A model generated the notes under the pieces. That model worked only from the letters and a program-made list of their open reading frames with translations. It was not told the DNA's origin and did not search any database. 64,000 nucleotides of DNA, taken from the NCBI RefSeq assembly GCF_007558725.1, contig NZ_VLPL01000001.1, positions 540,808 through 604,807 on the forward strand, given 5' to 3'. Both the position numbers and the translations under genes were made by a program. The stretch comes from Fluviicola chungangensis. GTDB taxonomy: Bacteria > Bacteroidota > Bacteroidia > Flavobacteriales_D > Crocinitomicaceae. Positions 50,377 to 59,022 of the stretch are shown here, piece by piece. Numbering within the stretch: the stretch's first letter is position 1; each line of letters starts with the position of its first letter.

Positions 50377-50385
50377 AGAATCTAT

Positions 50386-50416
50386 CTCCCCCTTTGGAGG
50401 GGGATTAAGGGGGAGG
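50386..50416. repeat. GC-rich palindromic repeat unit (same family as 20726-20807)
   Basis: The unit has the pattern CCCCCTTTGGAGGGGG, then ATTAAGGGGGAGG, directly after gcvT. It matches one arm of the inverted repeat between cysD and cysN almost base for base. Confidence 0.7.
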
Positions 50417-50449
50417 AAGGACAACTATTAATTCTTCCTTATAATACTC

Positions 50450-50482
50450 AAGTGGGATTGTGAAAGCAGTTCCACTTTTTTA
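50450..50482 (+). terminator. Terminator-like hairpin on the left of parDE
   Basis: AAGTGGGA pairs with TTCCACTT and is followed by Ts. The 28 bases 50450-50477 match the reverse complement of 51138-51165 at 23 positions, so the parDE pair lies between two copies in opposite orientation. Confidence 0.65.
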
Positions 50483-50501
50483 TGACATAAAAATCAAACA
50501 C

Positions 50502-50532
50502 TTGGATAAAGTACCAATTTTTGGTAACTTTA
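50502..50532 (+). promoter_or_regulatory. parDE promoter with overlapping dyad operator
   Basis: TTG (50502-50504), 20 bases, then TAACTTTA (50525-50532), one mismatch from TAnnTTTG. The imperfect palindrome AAAGTACCAA..TTGGTAACTTT (50508-50531) overlaps the promoter, as expected for autorepression by a ParD-type antitoxin. Confidence 0.45.
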
Positions 50533-50547
50533 AGAAAAATTTCGATC

Positions 50548-50787
50548 ATGAAAAATACATCTGTGTCACTTGGTAATTATTTCGATGAATTTGTAAGTCA
50601 ACAAATTTCAGCCGGAAGGTATAAAAATGTGAGTGAGGTTATTCGCGCCGGGCTTCGACTTTTGGAGAATGAAGAAAGTAAATTAATTGCTTTAAAAAGT
50701 GCTATCCAGGAAGGACTAAATAGTCCAAGAGTTGAGAATTTTGACTTTGATGAACATTTAACCAACTTAAAATCTGAAAAGAAGTAG
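50548..50787 (+). CDS. parD: ParD-type antitoxin
   Basis: The start at 50548 gives 79 residues beginning MKNTSVSLGNYFDEFVSQQI, with the ribbon-helix-helix pattern and the family block SAGRYKNVSEVIRAGLRLLENEE. An earlier in-frame start would run into the promoter dyad. The C-terminal part (about 50-79) should wrap the toxin. The dimer should bind the palindrome upstream and repress its own operon. It is followed by the toxin gene after 2 bases. Confidence 0.92.
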   Translation: MKNTSVSLGNYFDEFVSQQISAGRYKNVSEVIRAGLRLLENEESKLIALKSAIQEGLNSPRVENFDFDEHLTNLKSEKK

Positions 50788-50789
50788 AA

Positions 50790-51089
50790 ATGCCTAAAGT
50801 TATCTTAAGACAAGAGGCAATAAACGACTTAACTGACATTTGGCAGTATACCTTACATAAGTGGTCAGAAAAACAAGCGGACAAGTATTATCAAGCAATT
50901 CAATCGGCCTGCAAAGAAATTGGAAACGATCCAACACTTGGAAAAGTTTACATAGAAGTAAACCCGAATTTATTAGGATTCAAGTCGGGAAAACACATTT
51001 TGTTTTATCACCTGGTCTCAGAAAATGAAATAGAGATTATACGGATATTGCACGAAAGAATGGATTTGGAAAACCAGACAAACGACTAA
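50790..51089 (+). CDS. parE: ParE/RelE-fold toxin
   Basis: The 99 residues fit the ParE family: VILRQEAINDLTDIWQYTLHKWSEKQADKYYQAIQSACKEIGNDPTLGK, then GFKSGKHILFYHLVSENEIEIIRILHERMDL with the typical YR-type strand and terminal helix. ParE toxins inhibit DNA gyrase; the fold is shared with RelE ribonucleases, so the target is not certain. Forms a two-gene toxin-antitoxin operon with the preceding antitoxin. Confidence 0.92.
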   Translation: MPKVILRQEAINDLTDIWQYTLHKWSEKQADKYYQAIQSACKEIGNDPTLGKVYIEVNPNLLGFKSGKHILFYHLVSENEIEIIRILHERMDLENQTND

Positions 51090-51137
51090 GAGTCAAGGGT
51101 CAGGACTGTTAGAATTAAGACTTTTAACTAATTATAG

Positions 51138-51170
51138 TAGTGGAATCGTTTTCACAATTCCACTTTTTTT
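51138..51170 (+). terminator. Terminator-like hairpin on the right of parDE
   Basis: AGTGGAAT (51139-51146) pairs with ATTCCACT (51157-51164), followed by seven or more Ts. It is the inverted counterpart of the hairpin at 50450. Confidence 0.8.
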
Positions 51171-51359
51171 GTAACCAATTTATCTAACTATCACTTTCGT
51201 TTCGATTTTTTAAGTAGTATTGGAAGAGCGAAACGCGCAAATGCACTATTTACTGAAACCACATTCACGATTTTCTGTTGATTTTCAGGCTTAAATCTTG
51301 ATGAAAAATGAATTTAGTATTTATACATCCCTAGTTAAAATGATTAATTATTATTAAAG

Positions 51360-53114
51360 ATGAGTATTACTCCTAGAGGTATGAGCTTGCAAGAAGCTTA
51401 TAGAAATTATTCGGAAGGAAAGTTCCTAGTAAACAGAAAGTACCAGAGAAAACTTGTCTGGACGGTTGATGAAAAAGAATATCTGATTGATAGTATCATA
51501 AATGATTTACCAATTCCCTTGATTCTTTTAGCTCAGACGGATGACGGTAAACTTGAAATTATAGACGGTCTCCAGCGCATGAACGCTATAATTTCCTTTG
51601 TAGAAAATCGATTTTCAATCCATGGAAAATATTTTGACACAAAACAATCATCAAGAGCAAAGCAATCTGCAGAAGAAGGTATTTTTGTTCCAATAACAGA
51701 TGATACTCAATTGTTAGACGCTAAAGTTTGTGCTAATTTTCTAGATTATCAATTAGCAATTACTATTTATCCAACCGACAACGAAGCTGAGATTACAGAT
51801 ATTTTTGGGAGAATAAATTCTGGAGGGAAACAACTAAGTCCTCAAGAAAAAAGGCAGGCAGGAATGCTCGATGTACTTTCTGACACAGTTAGAAAGGTTT
51901 CTTCAGAAATAAGAGGAGATTCTTCTAAGGATATATTGGATTTAGCAGAAATGCCTGAAATTAGTATTGATTCCAATCGAGAAAATATAGGATATGGACT
52001 TATCGCCGAAGATATATTTTGGTGTAAGAACGGAATTATATGGAAAAAACAACTTAGAGATAGCGAAGATGAAGAAATGATTCTAGATATCATTGCAAGT
52101 ATTGTAAAAGATGAGCCTTTAGCAAAAAGTCGTGAGCTATTCAACAAAATATACAATATTGAGAATAATGAACATAAGGAGTTCAATTCTCTTTTAGTAA
52201 AATATGGAGTTGATAGAATAATGCACGAGATCAAAGTTACTTTTTCACTAATTGAAGGGGTATTTGAAGATCAAAATACAAGTATCATTAATGTCGTCAA
52301 CCCGAAATCCAGAAATCCAGTTAAGGAATCCTTTTATTCTATCTTCATGTCTTTTTTTCATTTAATTGTTAAGGAAGAAAAATCTCCTGCCGACAGCGCA
52401 GAAATAGTAAAAGCACTTCACGGATTGCAAAAAAAGATGACTTCAACAGCAAATTATTCTGTTACTCCAGATAGAGAAAAAAATATCAATCTTACAACAG
52501 GATTGATTCAAAAATATTTTGTCAAAAAAGATCCTCCAGTACTAAGACACGGAGCAGGTTTGGCATTAGATTTTGAAAATTCAATTCGACGAGCCAAAAT
52601 AGAGTCGAATAGGTATGAATGCAAACAAGGATTCTATGATCTTTCAAACACACGAGATTTAAATGAAAATCTTTATGATGAAATTATTGAAACAATATGT
52701 GGTATCGCAAATATTGGACCTGAAGAAGATGGATTTCTATTCATCGGTGTTGCTGATAAGGAGGCCGATGCAAAACGAATTCAGGTTTTAGATAGAATCG
52801 ATTATAAAACAATTAATCAAAGACACATTGTTGGGATAGACCGTGAATTAGAATTACAAAAAGGCTCTCTTGATGATTACATTAACAGACTTTTAAATAA
52901 AATTTCAAAATCAAACTTATCAGAACCTTTAAAAAGCCAGGTATTAAGTCAACTTGATGTCATAGATTATAAGGGATTAACCGTATTAAGACTTAGAGTA
53001 CCACGTCAAAAAGAACTTTCTTTTGTAGATAAAAAAAGTTTCGTAAGGGAAAACTCAAATACTATTGAACTTGATGGTCCGAAACTAGTCGCGATAAGCA
53101 AATTATTTAATTAA
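51360..53114 (+). CDS. DUF262 (ParB/GmrS-like) + AlbA_2/Schlafen-like two-domain protein
   Basis: Residues 1-180 match the DUF262 fold: LVNRKYQRKLVWTVDEKEYLIDSIINDLPIPLILL, the central IIDGLQRMNAIISF (a variant of the DGQQR motif) and IFGRINSGGKQLSPQEKRQAGM. A helical middle of about 220 residues follows. Residues about 425-584 resemble an AlbA_2/Schlafen-type domain (ESNRYECKQGFYDL, IIETICGIANIGPEEDGFLFIGVADK, GLTVLRLRVP, FVRENSNTIEL). DUF262 proteins often take part in defence (GmrSD, Dnd-associated), and AlbA_2 domains occur in nucleic-acid-targeting proteins. The HNH module usual in GmrSD is absent. The gene is visibly more AT-rich than its neighbours and sits beside a toxin-antitoxin pair, pointing to an acquired accessory gene. 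Confidence 0.75.
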   Translation: MSITPRGMSLQEAYRNYSEGKFLVNRKYQRKLVWTVDEKEYLIDSIINDLPIPLILLAQTDDGKLEIIDGLQRMNAIISFVENRFSIHGKYFDTKQSSRAKQSAEEGIFVPITDDTQLLDAKVCANFLDYQLAITIYPTDNEAEITDIFGRINSGGKQLSPQEKRQAGMLDVLSDTVRKVSSEIRGDSSKDILDLAEMPEISIDSNRENIGYGLIAEDIFWCKNGIIWKKQLRDSEDEEMILDIIASIVKDEPLAKSRELFNKIYNIENNEHKEFNSLLVKYGVDRIMHEIKVTFSLIEGVFEDQNTSIINVVNPKSRNPVKESFYSIFMSFFHLIVKEEKSPADSAEIVKALHGLQKKMTSTANYSVTPDREKNINLTTGLIQKYFVKKDPPVLRHGAGLALDFENSIRRAKIESNRYECKQGFYDLSNTRDLNENLYDEIIETICGIANIGPEEDGFLFIGVADKEADAKRIQVLDRIDYKTINQRHIVGIDRELELQKGSLDDYINRLLNKISKSNLSEPLKSQVLSQLDVIDYKGLTVLRLRVPRQKELSFVDKKSFVRENSNTIELDGPKLVAISKLFN

Positions 53115-53248
53115 GGTTCTATTTATTTAAACTAAAATCTTCAAAACTTGTCTATTCTTTCCTTTTCCTTACTTCTTAACATCGCTTAACATCCTGCATT
53201 TTTCATTGTTGGAAGAAGCGTGTATTTTGACCTCCTAAACTTATGAGT

Positions 53249-53698
53249 ATGAAAAAGATCACAATCCTTGGATTGATCCTGATCGGAAGTGGAGTTGCTA
53301 TGGCTCAAACCGAAAAAGATCCAAAAACGGAAAAGAAAGAAGTTCGCAAAGAAGTGAAAATGGAAGTGGTTGACGGTGAAAAAACATTGACCATCAATAC
53401 CACGAACGGTAGCAAAACTTCCAGCGAAGTATACAAAGGTGCTGAAGCAGACCAAAAGCTCCGGGAAATAGAAGGAGGAATGAAATCTGACCGGGTAACG
53501 GAAGACGTCAAAGTAACCGATGAGAACGGTGAGAAAGTGGTTCGAATCATCCGCAATGAAAACGGGAAAACAACAGAAGAAGTCTACAAAGGTGCTGAAG
53601 CAGATAAGAAATTGAAAGAACTGGAAATGAATGATTCGAAATCCATGCACAAAGAAGAACAACGCATCGAGATCAAAAAAGAAATTCGCGAAAAATAA
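53249..53698 (+). CDS. Exported charged repeat protein
   Basis: The signal peptide MKKITILGLILIGSGVAMAQ starts at 53249; an ATG two codons upstream (53243) is possible. The mature part is very Lys/Glu-rich and contains two copies of the module SSEVYKGAEADQKLREIE and TEEVYKGAEADKKLKELE, each preceded by a strand pattern such as TLTINTTNGSK or KVVRIIRNENGK. The protein is about 130 residues after cleavage. No known domain; the role is unknown and probably periplasmic. Confidence 0.75.
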   Translation: MKKITILGLILIGSGVAMAQTEKDPKTEKKEVRKEVKMEVVDGEKTLTINTTNGSKTSSEVYKGAEADQKLREIEGGMKSDRVTEDVKVTDENGEKVVRIIRNENGKTTEEVYKGAEADKKLKELEMNDSKSMHKEEQRIEIKKEIREK

Positions 53699-53712
53699 AA
53701 CTCATTAGCATA

Positions 53713-53747
53713 AGAAAAGCCCTGACGATACATGTCAGGGCTTTTCT
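53713..53747. terminator. Strong bidirectional intrinsic terminator
   Basis: AGAAAAGCCCTGAC pairs perfectly with GTCAGGGCTTTTCT (14 pairs) around the loop GATACAT, between convergent genes. Confidence 0.92.
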
Positions 53748-53764
53748 GTTCTTATTGATTTTGG

Positions 53765-56052: not shown

Positions 56053-59022
56053 TCACTTAACAATTATTTCATCCAGGAACAACCAGGTCGGATTTCCCTT
56101 TCCCAGGTGCCAATCCGGACATGATCCGTAATTTTCAACGCTGAAACGGATAAACTTGCAAGAAGTCGGAGCGATTTCAACACTCAACTCTCCTACCTTC
56201 AAAGTTTCACCTTCTTTTACCGGAACTCCCGCAACTTTGCCTAATTTCCGGTAAATTACTCCGTCTGTTGAAACTTCGATGCTCACACTTTTCGGAGGGA
56301 AGATCCACGATTTCTGATCCTGTAAATACGAGAACTGGATCAGGGAGATCTCTCTTTGTTCATTCAGTTCAATGACTCCCTGAACATTTTTCCCGAAGGA
56401 ACCCTGCCATTCCGTTCCGCGGTATTCTTCGGTTCCTTTTTGACCATCAACCAATGCCTGCGAACCACCACCTGAATATTGGTTTGCATATTCCGTGGCA
56501 AGCGTAATCTTTTTATCCCGGACGTATTTTGTAAATAAAGTCTTGATGACTTTGCTTTCCGAACCATCGTCACGCACTACTTTTGCATAGACCTGTGTTG
56601 TTTCATTCAGGTGAATATTTTTCCCTCCTTGCTTATAAAACGGCTGGTACTTTTCCCCGTCAAAACTGTAATACACTTTCCCTTTTTCAAAGAAAAGTAC
56701 GTCGATCCCCAATTCCATACTTGTTTCAAACATCGTTTGAGAAGTGGTGAAAAAGGGAACAGGAACAAAAGCCGGACTGATTTCATGTCGCAGATCCAAT
56801 TCATAATTTGCCAGCTGCTTATTCGGTTTCGCGCCCATTGAAATTTCCAAAACACCCCCTTCTCTGATCATGTCGTGGGTAATAAATAATTTCTGGTATG
56901 CTTTTCCATTCCAGGAAATAGATTGAACATACTTATTCTCCTCTGAATTATTCACTACATTGATCTCAAAAGAAGTTGTTTCGCCCTGGATCAGCACATG
57001 GTCCATCATCGGCCGACCGATTGTATACGTCGGACTGCCCGGGGAAACCGGGTAAAAGCCCATCGAACTCAGGACGTACCATGCAGACATTTGCCCGCAA
57101 TCTTCGTTTCCTGAAAGACCATCCGGCGCATTGACGTAAAACGTTTTTAGAATCGTATCGATCAAAGCCTGCGTTTTTTCCGGAGCACCGCAATAGTTGT
57201 AGGTATACGCCATGTGATGCGAAGGCTCGTTTCCATGTGCGTATTGCCCGATCAAGCCTGTAATATCTGCCTGCTCACGCCCCGACATGGAGGAAGAACC
57301 CAGGAACATCGTGTCCAGGAAATTGATCATTCCTTCATTTCCTCCGTGCATATCAATCAAAGCCTGGATGTGTTGCGGAGCAGCCAGGGAATATTGCCAT
57401 CCGTTTGCTTCCGTAAAGTGGTGGTTTACTTCATTCGGTTTGAAAAAAGGAAGGAAGATCCCGTCTTTTCTCGGTTGAAAAAAGCGCGACTCCGGGTGCA
57501 ATAAATTCATCCAATTGGCTGAGCGTACCTGGTACTTCTTTGCAATATCTGTTTTCCCCAGTTTCTCTGCAAATCTCGAAATACACCAATCGTCGTATGC
57601 ATATTCCAATGTTTTTGAAACCGATTCGGCCTGGGTATTGGCAGAAATGAACCCGATTTCCTCGTATTGTTTCTTTCCCCATTGATCTGCCGTGCTTGAA
57701 GCAATCATCGCTTCCAGCAATCCTTCCGGATTTTCAAGTGGAATTCCTTTCAAATAAGCATCTGTAATTACCGAAACGGAATGATACCCGATCATGCAAT
57801 TCGTTTCATTATTGGATAAGGTCCACACCGGAAGCAATCCCGTATTTTGGTATTGCTTATAAAAGGAACTGACGAAATCAGAAACTTTTTGTGGCTGAAC
57901 AATGGTGTAAAGCGGATTCGCTCCGCGATACGTATCCCACAAGGAAAAAACAGAATACAAGGAATTTTCTGAGGTTTGGATCTGATCGTTATAGTCGCGG
58001 TATCTCCCGTCCACATCCGTCCAAAGTGAAGGATGAATAAACGAATGGTAAAGTGCTGTATAAAAGTTATTTAGAACGTCCTTTTGAGAAGATTTCACTT
58101 TGATCTTTCCCAATTCCAGGTCCCAGGCTGCAAGCGCACGTGAGCGGACAATATCAAAATCAAAACTGGTTAGTTCCGCTTTCAAATTGGCAGTTGCACC
58201 CGCCTGGTCCGTTCCGGAAATTCCAACACGCACTGCAATTTCCCTTACACCTTCCGGGAATTCCAATACAAACAAATACGTCCCTTCTTTTTTATCTTCA
58301 ATCCATTTGGTCTTGGTAAAGGGAATGGATGTCTCCAAACTAAACGCCAGGTGCTGATGTGTCGCCCAAGCCTCGGAAACACGTTTTCCTACAACCGAAG
58401 TCGAAGACGTTTTCATCGCCTCCACTTCCAATACGCGATCGCGGTATCCTAAATCAATAACGATGTAGCGTTTTCCCTTCGGGTTTGAGAATTGGTACCG
58501 GTGCAGGGCACAACGCAAAGTAGCCGTCAAATCTGCTGTAATCCCGTTTTCCATTTCTACATGGTAATAACCCGGAAGCGCCTTTTCTTTGGAATGTTTG
58601 AAAACGGAACCAAATCCCCCTGCTTTTTTATATCCCGGAACGGTATTCAGTTTTCCCTGTTGCGGAACCAGCAGCACATCCGAATAATCCGGAATTCCTG
58701 TTCCGCTCAAATGCGTGTGACTGAATCCGTAAATCACGGAATCCGAATAATGATAACCACCGCAACCGTCCCATCCTTCATACCGCGTGTCAGGTCCCAC
58801 TTGAACCATTCCAAAAGGAAGTACCGGCCCCGGAAAAGTATGTCCGTGCCCTCCTGTCCCTACAAATGTATTGACGTAGCGTGACGGACTTGGTATCGCT
58901 TTGGATAATTTATCTGAGTACACTTTATCTCTTGCCATGTCCGAATTGGTTTTCAATTCCTGGATTTGAGAAAAGCCCGAAAAAGAACAAATTAGCGTAA
59001 GTAGAAATATCCTGTTTTTCAT
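56053..59022 (-). CDS. GH92 family alpha-mannosidase, exported
   Basis: A signal peptide (1-19) precedes the GH92 N-terminal beta-sandwich (YVNTFVGTGGHGHTFPGPVLPFGMVQVGPDTRYEGWDGCGGYHYSDSVIYGFSHTHLSGTG), one of the most conserved family regions. The catalytic (alpha/alpha)6 part carries MAYTYNYCGAPEKTQALID and GNEDCGQMSAWYVLSSMGFYPVSPG. After about residue 740 come a chitobiase-like C-terminal segment and an F5/8-type discoidin-like domain (QALVDGQKGTEEYRGTEWQG, about 860-989). It should remove alpha-linked mannose from N-glycans using a calcium ion. The ROK kinase gene lies just upstream in the same direction. Confidence 0.93.
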   Translation of the reverse strand: MKNRIFLLTLICSFSGFSQIQELKTNSDMARDKVYSDKLSKAIPSPSRYVNTFVGTGGHGHTFPGPVLPFGMVQVGPDTRYEGWDGCGGYHYSDSVIYGFSHTHLSGTGIPDYSDVLLVPQQGKLNTVPGYKKAGGFGSVFKHSKEKALPGYYHVEMENGITADLTATLRCALHRYQFSNPKGKRYIVIDLGYRDRVLEVEAMKTSSTSVVGKRVSEAWATHQHLAFSLETSIPFTKTKWIEDKKEGTYLFVLEFPEGVREIAVRVGISGTDQAGATANLKAELTSFDFDIVRSRALAAWDLELGKIKVKSSQKDVLNNFYTALYHSFIHPSLWTDVDGRYRDYNDQIQTSENSLYSVFSLWDTYRGANPLYTIVQPQKVSDFVSSFYKQYQNTGLLPVWTLSNNETNCMIGYHSVSVITDAYLKGIPLENPEGLLEAMIASSTADQWGKKQYEEIGFISANTQAESVSKTLEYAYDDWCISRFAEKLGKTDIAKKYQVRSANWMNLLHPESRFFQPRKDGIFLPFFKPNEVNHHFTEANGWQYSLAAPQHIQALIDMHGGNEGMINFLDTMFLGSSSMSGREQADITGLIGQYAHGNEPSHHMAYTYNYCGAPEKTQALIDTILKTFYVNAPDGLSGNEDCGQMSAWYVLSSMGFYPVSPGSPTYTIGRPMMDHVLIQGETTSFEINVVNNSEENKYVQSISWNGKAYQKLFITHDMIREGGVLEISMGAKPNKQLANYELDLRHEISPAFVPVPFFTTSQTMFETSMELGIDVLFFEKGKVYYSFDGEKYQPFYKQGGKNIHLNETTQVYAKVVRDDGSESKVIKTLFTKYVRDKKITLATEYANQYSGGGSQALVDGQKGTEEYRGTEWQGSFGKNVQGVIELNEQREISLIQFSYLQDQKSWIFPPKSVSIEVSTDGVIYRKLGKVAGVPVKEGETLKVGELSVEIAPTSCKFIRFSVENYGSCPDWHLGKGNPTWLFLDEIIVK

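Follow-up and report, generated by a model that had tools for sequence, protein, structure and literature searches.

The window analyzed here (the whole stretch of 64,000 nucleotides of Fluviicola chungangensis DNA) harbors on its forward strand an intact open reading frame (ORF) of 584 amino acids at positions 51360 to 53114 (ATG at 51360, stop codon at 53112 to 53114), which joins a DUF262 module and a Schlafen-type AlbA_2 domain on one chain. We think it fairly probable that this fusion gene is a single-gene, horizontally mobile system against phages and other invaders, in which a DUF262 sensor would be coupled to a Schlafen/SAMD9-type RNase. DUF262 modules are thought to gate DNA nucleases upon encountering modified phage DNA, and the Schlafen domains of animals act as antiviral RNases. 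Both components have been described before, each in connection with defense. No description of a DUF262-Schlafen fusion was found among the passages returned by full-text literature searches; one paper, PMC3710099, contains both DUF262 and Schlafen but describes no fusion in the passages seen.

Domain architecture and putative active site

A preliminary description of this DNA had proposed a DUF262-AlbA_2 fusion lacking an HNH nuclease, and the ORF list, Pfam and an alignment of 32 homologs bore this out to the exact coordinates. In the window protein, Pfam (to E 0.1) matched only GmrSD_N (E 1.4e-23; 84.5 bits against a cutoff of 33.2) and, at residues 415 to 570, SLFN_AlbA_2 (E 1.4e-7; 32.5 bits against a cutoff of 25.3), with no DUF1524 or HNH match. 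Together with the alignments and structural models, three parts can be delimited on the forward strand: a DUF262/GmrSD_N (ParB/Srx-like) module at residues 12 to 167 (positions 51393 to 51860), a mostly helical middle region at residues 168 to 390 (51861 to 52529), seen in the AlphaFold model and the alignment to BrxU, and an AlbA_2/Schlafen-type RNase-like domain at residues 391 to 584 (52530 to 53111), placed by Pfam, a model of the domain and its structure matches. GmrSD_N was present in all 32 homologs (window protein included) and the SLFN_AlbA_2 profile was reached by 30; DUF1524 was not among the three Pfam families listed for this set at E 0.001. Two more DUF262 proteins are encoded in the same genome, G000 (L001, C14:223809-224399; L003, C1:482208-482978), one above the Pfam cutoff and the other below it.

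NCBIfam gave no match to the window protein. The PADLOC profiles NsnA (residues 2 to 358, E 1.9e-31) and PD-T4-2_A (residues 13 to 166, E 2.2e-19) match its front only and not the Schlafen domain, and no paper found in the literature on NsnA appeared to concern a DUF262-Schlafen-type protein. The match to phrog_26759 spans the full length (residues 3 to 568, E 9.7e-114), and we take this PHROG, the function of which PHROGs lists as unknown, to represent the same family. DUF262 proteins that lack DUF1524 have been described before, namely, PD-T4-2, Menshen and Dazbog in the passages seen of PMC10952713 and PtuX in those of PMC11980606.

The motif DGLQR (residues 69 to 73; 51564 to 51578), which had been singled out as a variant, is no chance variant, as DG[LM]QR was kept in all 32 aligned homologs (window included). 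D69, G70, Q72 and R73 were invariant, and residue 71 was L (26 homologs) or M (6 homologs), never Q; one further relative (L088) has V at this position (DGVQR). The (I/V)DGQQR motif given for the GmrSD/BrxU family in passages of PMC10952713 was thus absent from all of these 32 proteins. The motifs NRxYQRKLVW and RIN were also invariant in the alignments of the DUF262/GmrSD_N module. The larger alignment (A3) took in 9 of 13 genome-contig loci and 22 of 33 viral loci, leaving out seven partial sequences, five interrupted ones and three near-duplicates of L101, and some of its rows begin at the search match instead of the start codon; a second alignment (A2) comprised 18 chosen full-length proteins, including that of the window.

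A putative active site is conserved in the C-terminal domain. The first putative catalytic acid, E415 (52602 to 52604), was E in all 32 homologs, the second, E420 (52617 to 52619), was E in 28 and D in 4, and K422, which follows it, was invariant (32/32). A candidate third acid, D466 (52755 to 52757), was D in 30 and E in 2. The E-x4-E-x-K arrangement is widespread among AlbA_2 domains. The spacing of E415 and E420 is the same as that of E205 and E210 of SLFN13, which passages of PMC5862951 list with D248 as catalytic residues; D466 may be the counterpart of D248. Estimates of dN/dS (NG86) bore signs of purifying selection: the value was approximately 0.03 for the window gene against L020 and L021, a rough figure given saturated dS, and approximately 0.03 to 0.05 in four of six gene pairs. 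In the pairs that include the window gene dS was saturated, and for two pairs no value could be computed.

The full-chain AlphaFold model (mean pLDDT 84.6, pTM 0.63) had BrxU as its top Foldseek match (E 1.8e-4). With VIA-align, residues 3 to 385 aligned to BrxU residues 1 to 420 (Z 8.2; 282 residues aligned, at a loose rmsd of 12.2), the front approximately 158 residues matched SspE (Z 7.3 to 7.4) and ParB/Noc CTPases (Z about 6 to 7), and residues 391 to 584 matched the SAMD9 tRNase domain (Z 10.4) and Schlafens. Modeled alone (pLDDT 91.1, pTM 0.86), the C-terminal domain matched 3lmm (Z 11.0), SAMD9 (Z 10.3 to 10.5), 2kyy (Z 8.6) and Schlafens (Z 6.5 to 8.1), with the next rows at Z 4.8; a SAMD9 domain with DNA (7ksp) was among its matches. 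Sequence identity to SAMD9 and Schlafens in these structural alignments was only 12 to 26%. A single-protein sequence search of solved structures gave no usable match, and a profile search gave three matches, the best of which was a histone (E 0.075), with BrxU at E 0.18 over the motifs QR-VW and F-R-N-S-G-G-LS.

Neither 3lmm nor 2kyy is known to be a nuclease. As these structures share the fold and E-x4-E-x-K is common in AlbA_2 domains, fold and motif do not prove catalysis, and the RNase step is putative. The preliminary description had suggested an NTP-dependent or nucleic-acid-sensing effector, an idea that can now be made more precise: the front part matches BrxU, SspE and ParB, and the C terminus, the model of which matches the SAMD9 tRNase and Schlafens, would more probably serve as an RNase effector than as a sensor.

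Among known systems, the type IV restriction enzymes GmrSD and BrxU share the DUF262 front module, the helical region, the single polypeptide and a defense setting; however, they carry DUF1524/HNH and DGQQR where the fusion protein has a Schlafen-type domain and DG[LM]QR. The phosphorothioate-sensing SspE shares the front module by fold but differs in that the fusion protein has no DUF1524 match and no ssp or dnd modification genes were among the annotated neighbors on the six plasmids inspected. SAMD9 and human Schlafens share the C-terminal fold, with the E-x4-E pair as in SLFN13, but are animal proteins of low sequence identity and carry other sensor, helicase or STAND parts. Bacterial Schlafens, which reportedly act in defense (going by the title of a 2025 preprint, bioRxiv 10.1101/2025.07.24.666596), have in common with the fusion protein an AlbA_2/Schlafen RNase-like domain and a defense setting.

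Insertion site and upstream leader

Comparison with congeners placed the fusion gene in a variable interval (50377 to 53764) between gcvT and an S46 peptidase gene. Both flanking genes were identified in all 14 genomes of the genus, on one contig and within about 20 kb of each other in 13. The interval is near-empty in G004 (165 bp), G006 (273 bp) and G012 (206 bp) and holds other cargo in the remaining congeners apart from G009, where it is split over two contigs; the fusion gene occupies it in the window's genome alone. Vertical inheritance at a fixed site was therefore rejected, as the gene is at the site in 1 of 14 genus genomes and its nearest relatives lie in other families and phyla, beside other neighbors. 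Acquisition, which had been proposed from the sequence, is supported by these empty or differently filled intervals and with relatives of 69 to 85% identity in other Bacteroidota, Psychrobacter and an Acidobacteriota metagenome-assembled genome (MAG).

The AT-rich patch noted in the preliminary description was confirmed, with a GC content of 0.32 to 0.34 in the five composition windows spanning the fusion gene and its immediate upstream DNA and 0.37 to 0.46 in the others between 40 and 64 kb. Of 15 cellular loci, all but L032 had a fusion gene lower in GC than the locus itself, and the same was true of all 30 viral loci printed, of 33. AT-richness thus goes with the DUF262-Schlafen family.

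Among the cargo ORFs scanned in the congener intervals were AbiGi in G002, a gene for a SIR2/STAND protein in G007 and one for an Mrr_cat_2 protein in G008. The G013 interval encodes a PIN_8/LOTUS protein and, with a kinase downstream, an AIPR protein that PADLOC matches to AbiU (E 9.2e-168); G013 also carries nondefense cargo there. Judged by these profile matches, the gcvT-S46 interval is a defense hotspot in some members of the genus. In the window, a parDE toxin-antitoxin pair (50521 to 51089, forward strand) adjoins the fusion gene, as had been described, with parD at 50521 to 50787 and parE at 50790 to 51089 in the ORF list and Pfam. An 82 to 86% identical parDE occurs at the same hotspot in G007 without the fusion gene; parDE was accordingly rejected as a partner and is not part of the proposed system. 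The DNA separating the fusion gene from the S46 gene contains an ORF (53243 to 53698) for a Lys/Glu-rich, apparently secreted protein of 151 amino acids, with no Pfam match and no tblastn match in 15 congener hotspot stretches.

Upstream of the fusion gene is a genus-specific leader of approximately 130 bp (51195 to 51330, forward strand), the core of which (51216 to 51241) is AGTATTGGAANAGCGAAACGCGCAAA, with an imperfect inverted repeat around GCGAAACGC in the alignment fold. It is single copy in the window's genome, and eight copies were identified in 5 of the 14 genus genomes (the window, L055, L060, L061, three in L067, and L069). Seven of these are at the gcvT-S46 hotspot; the eighth lies between genes that by eye are dapD- and aconitase-like, directly upstream of a congener's DUF262-Schlafen gene. 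In seven of the eight copies, an ORF starts 91 to 172 bp past the first base of TAGTATTG; these ORFs encode DUF262-Schlafen (twice), AbiGi, SIR2-STAND, PIN-LOTUS and AbiU proteins and a 254-amino-acid protein that had no matches and is followed by an Mrr-type gene. The one other copy is about 500 bp from the next ORF, for a cNMP-binding protein. The leader was not found in G001, G003, G005, G010 or G011, which have cargo at the site, and the eight cargo proteins scanned from these genomes gave no convincing defense match (best PADLOC E 0.002); G009 was omitted from this comparison, as its interval spans two contigs. The association of leader and defense genes is a pattern, not a test, because the copies share ancestry and lie mostly at one site.

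The leader had no match in Rfam, where three matches below the gathering score fall upstream of parDE, and a search of 200 genomes of the family beyond the genus gave three matches of 29 to 40 bases only, which are probably due to chance. We read TAGTATTG as resembling the Bacteroidota -7 box, TAnnTTTG. The simplest reading of the element is a shared promoter or leader, with a recombination site as the alternative.

Relatives in cellular genomes, plasmids, phages and satellites

Full-length relatives with 69 to 85% identity were identified in Hyunsoonleella, Formosa, a Flavobacteriaceae MAG, Chryseobacterium, Hymenobacter, Psychrobacter and an Acidobacteriota MAG; the 13 genome-contig loci of relatives include partial ones and three with identities of close to 50%. 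The fusion gene is rare among the sampled genomes, with a full-length match in 4 of 59 relatives' genomes and matches at E 1e-20 in 4 of 395 genomes of a phylum survey, one of them interrupted (the window's own genome is included in both counts). In 5,426 Escherichia coli genomes, three nucleotide queries matched 26, 27 and 28 genomes, the first two sets overlapping, as each of these queries also finds the other's gene. One matching record (NZ_CP026085.1, H41) may be mislabeled: it bears the name E. coli DH5alpha, yet it has a length of 4.83 Mb and contains a gene 100% identical to that of the E. coli W prophage.

In a tree of the fusion proteins, in which 16 of 27 inner branches were well supported, the window protein and proteins from Flavobacteriaceae, Psychrobacter and Acidobacteriota made up a supported group of six. 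The copy in the congener G013 is 40% identical to the window protein and branches far from it, which makes two separate acquisitions likely. Among the eight full-length relatives from other genera that are closest to the window gene, DNA similarity spanned the ORF from start to end, and no further, in six; it ended earlier in L024 and L027. No neighboring ORF family (ORFs of at least 80 amino acids within 5 kb) was common to at least 3 of 23 nonviral loci; the fusion gene thus stands alone, and with similarity confined to the ORF, the gene itself is the moving unit. Two Psychrobacter loci share one insertion site.

Related genes, GH92-like by eye, lie about 2.7 to 2.9 kb downstream of the fusion gene in the window (56053 to 59022) and in an uncultured Flavobacteriaceae genome (L022, 14482 to 17406), with different intervening genes at the two loci. 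An apparent two-gene split form in G242 was rejected as a natural variant: in this Bacteroidota homolog (L132; G242 C44), a short stretch with inverted repeats at its ends, probably a miniature inverted-repeat transposable element (MITE), breaks the gene in the interdomain linker. Of the 30 viral copies printed, 5 (L105, L106, L116, L118 and L121) were broken over at least two frames, which suggests decay.

Plasmid records matching the family numbered 1,462, of which 144 had at least 80% query coverage. Six plasmids were inspected, and on two of them the homologs adjoin restriction-modification genes; a relative on an E. coli plasmid is next to PemIK, and a Polaromonas relative is next to HigA. 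On a Citrobacter freundii IncC plasmid (L087), a 43% identical homolog has IS21 genes on one side and, on the other, a class 1 integron-like block with resistance genes.

Searched with an alignment, viral contigs yielded 33 loci; the window sequence alone found none, and an E. coli plasmid homolog found one partial locus. Among isolate-phage records, the window protein had no match, and a P2-type homolog matched 76 of 50,697 records, none covering more than 80% of the query. The distance from the fusion gene to gpQ is at most 660 bp in 12 of the 33 viral loci, with gpA on the opposite side in 10 of the 12, and the neighbors in L095, L101 and L110 were named with PHROGs; placement of one of the 12 (L105) is unsure because a gpS match also lies 281 bp away. 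Eighteen of the 33 had none of the tested P2 markers. In E. coli W, WP_000818977.1 is encoded between replication endonuclease and portal genes (P2 gpA-gpQ), beside three small ORFs. In E. coli 11899A and 23CRST010, WP_063081156.1 (62% identical to the P2-type L101 protein and 40% to the window protein) is encoded by the only annotated gene between psu (polarity suppression) and the integrase gene. A third type lies in a P2-like prophage between gpV and a virion-morphogenesis gene taken as gpS, which is the position of the P2 gene fun/Z. The P2 gpA-gpQ and P4 psu-int loci are antiviral hotspots according to the passages seen of Rousset et al. (PMC9122126). The check that had been put forward, a search for homologs near defense genes, placed homologs beside plasmid restriction-modification genes and, as the most telling result, in these hotspots.

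Proposed function and alternatives

Passages of PMC10952713 describe DUF262 enzymes as NTP-driven switches that control a nuclease, and the C terminus of the fusion protein fits the SAMD9/Schlafen fold with its E-x4-E pair; we therefore propose that the switch was kept and the DNase was exchanged for an RNase. Residues 1 to about 385 would form a GmrSD/BrxU/SspE-like NTP-dependent sensor, the signal for which would most likely be modified or otherwise foreign phage DNA, and residues 391 to 584 would be a Schlafen/SAMD9-type RNase standing where GmrSD family members have their DUF1524 HNH nuclease. Infection would make the sensor change state and release the RNase, which would cleave tRNA (or rRNA, tRNA being the most likely target) and stop translation, so that the phage fails; the infected cell may fail as well. 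Schlafen RNases are named as defense effectors in passages of PMC12839542.

The strongest support for defense is that relatives sit in the P2 gpA-gpQ and P4 psu-int hotspots. Support comes from these phage and satellite hotspots since, by eye and from translations, chromosomal copies of the closest relatives appear among housekeeping genes, with no defense islands apparent. These housekeeping neighbors were counted against the proposal, as were the 18 viral loci without P2 markers, the lack of a full-length copy among isolate phages, the loose BrxU superposition, the five interrupted viral copies and the small ORFs in the E. coli W locus.

Defense could also act through DNA, with the protein a type IV-like restriction factor whose AlbA_2 domain binds or cuts DNA and not RNA. 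In its favor, the front part resembles BrxU and SspE throughout, these enzymes act on DNA according to the passages seen of PMC10952713, and AlbA_2-fold proteins include the DNA-bound SAMD9 structure. However, neither the window protein nor the 32 homologs had a Pfam match to DUF1524 or HNH, and of the nucleases studied, those closest to the C-terminal fold (the SAMD9 tRNase and SLFN13) cut RNA; we regard action on DNA as unlikely. A role in plasmid or prophage competition or in regulation, in which a ParB-like NTP switch with a DNA-binding AlbA_2 domain would be directed at other mobile elements or at transcription and not at phages, we consider more doubtful still. Plasmids are rich in homologs (the 144 of 1,462 records above), and presumed regulators such as 3lmm and 2kyy contain AlbA_2, but the acidic pair and K422 are near-invariant, no neighbor is constant in chromosomes or plasmids, and homologs are present in the P2 and P4 defense hotspots. 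It is very improbable that the fusion gene is the toxin of a larger unit with parDE: the pair is adjacent and on the same strand, and plasmid relatives lie beside PemIK and HigA, yet G007 has the same parDE without the fusion gene, and no neighbor family recurred in at least three of the 23 loci.

Within the preferred reading of a DUF262-controlled RNase, we tentatively suggest an effector swap, which we hold to be possible though somewhat less probable than defense itself, whereby a type IV sensor became an infection-triggered tRNase used by P2, P4 and plasmids against competitors, with the leader as a promoter or landing site. With its DUF262 and Schlafen domains on a single chain, the fusion protein is a compact setting for the question of whether a DUF262 switch can drive an RNase. 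The RefSeq label "GmrSD restriction endonuclease domain-containing protein," borne by relatives, need not mean that the GmrSD nuclease is present. If the effector swap is true, the defense genes between gcvT and the S46 gene would be interchangeable and would share the leader as their promoter or landing site, and the fusion protein would be a bacterial DNA-sensing counterpart of animal SLFN/SAMD9 immunity.
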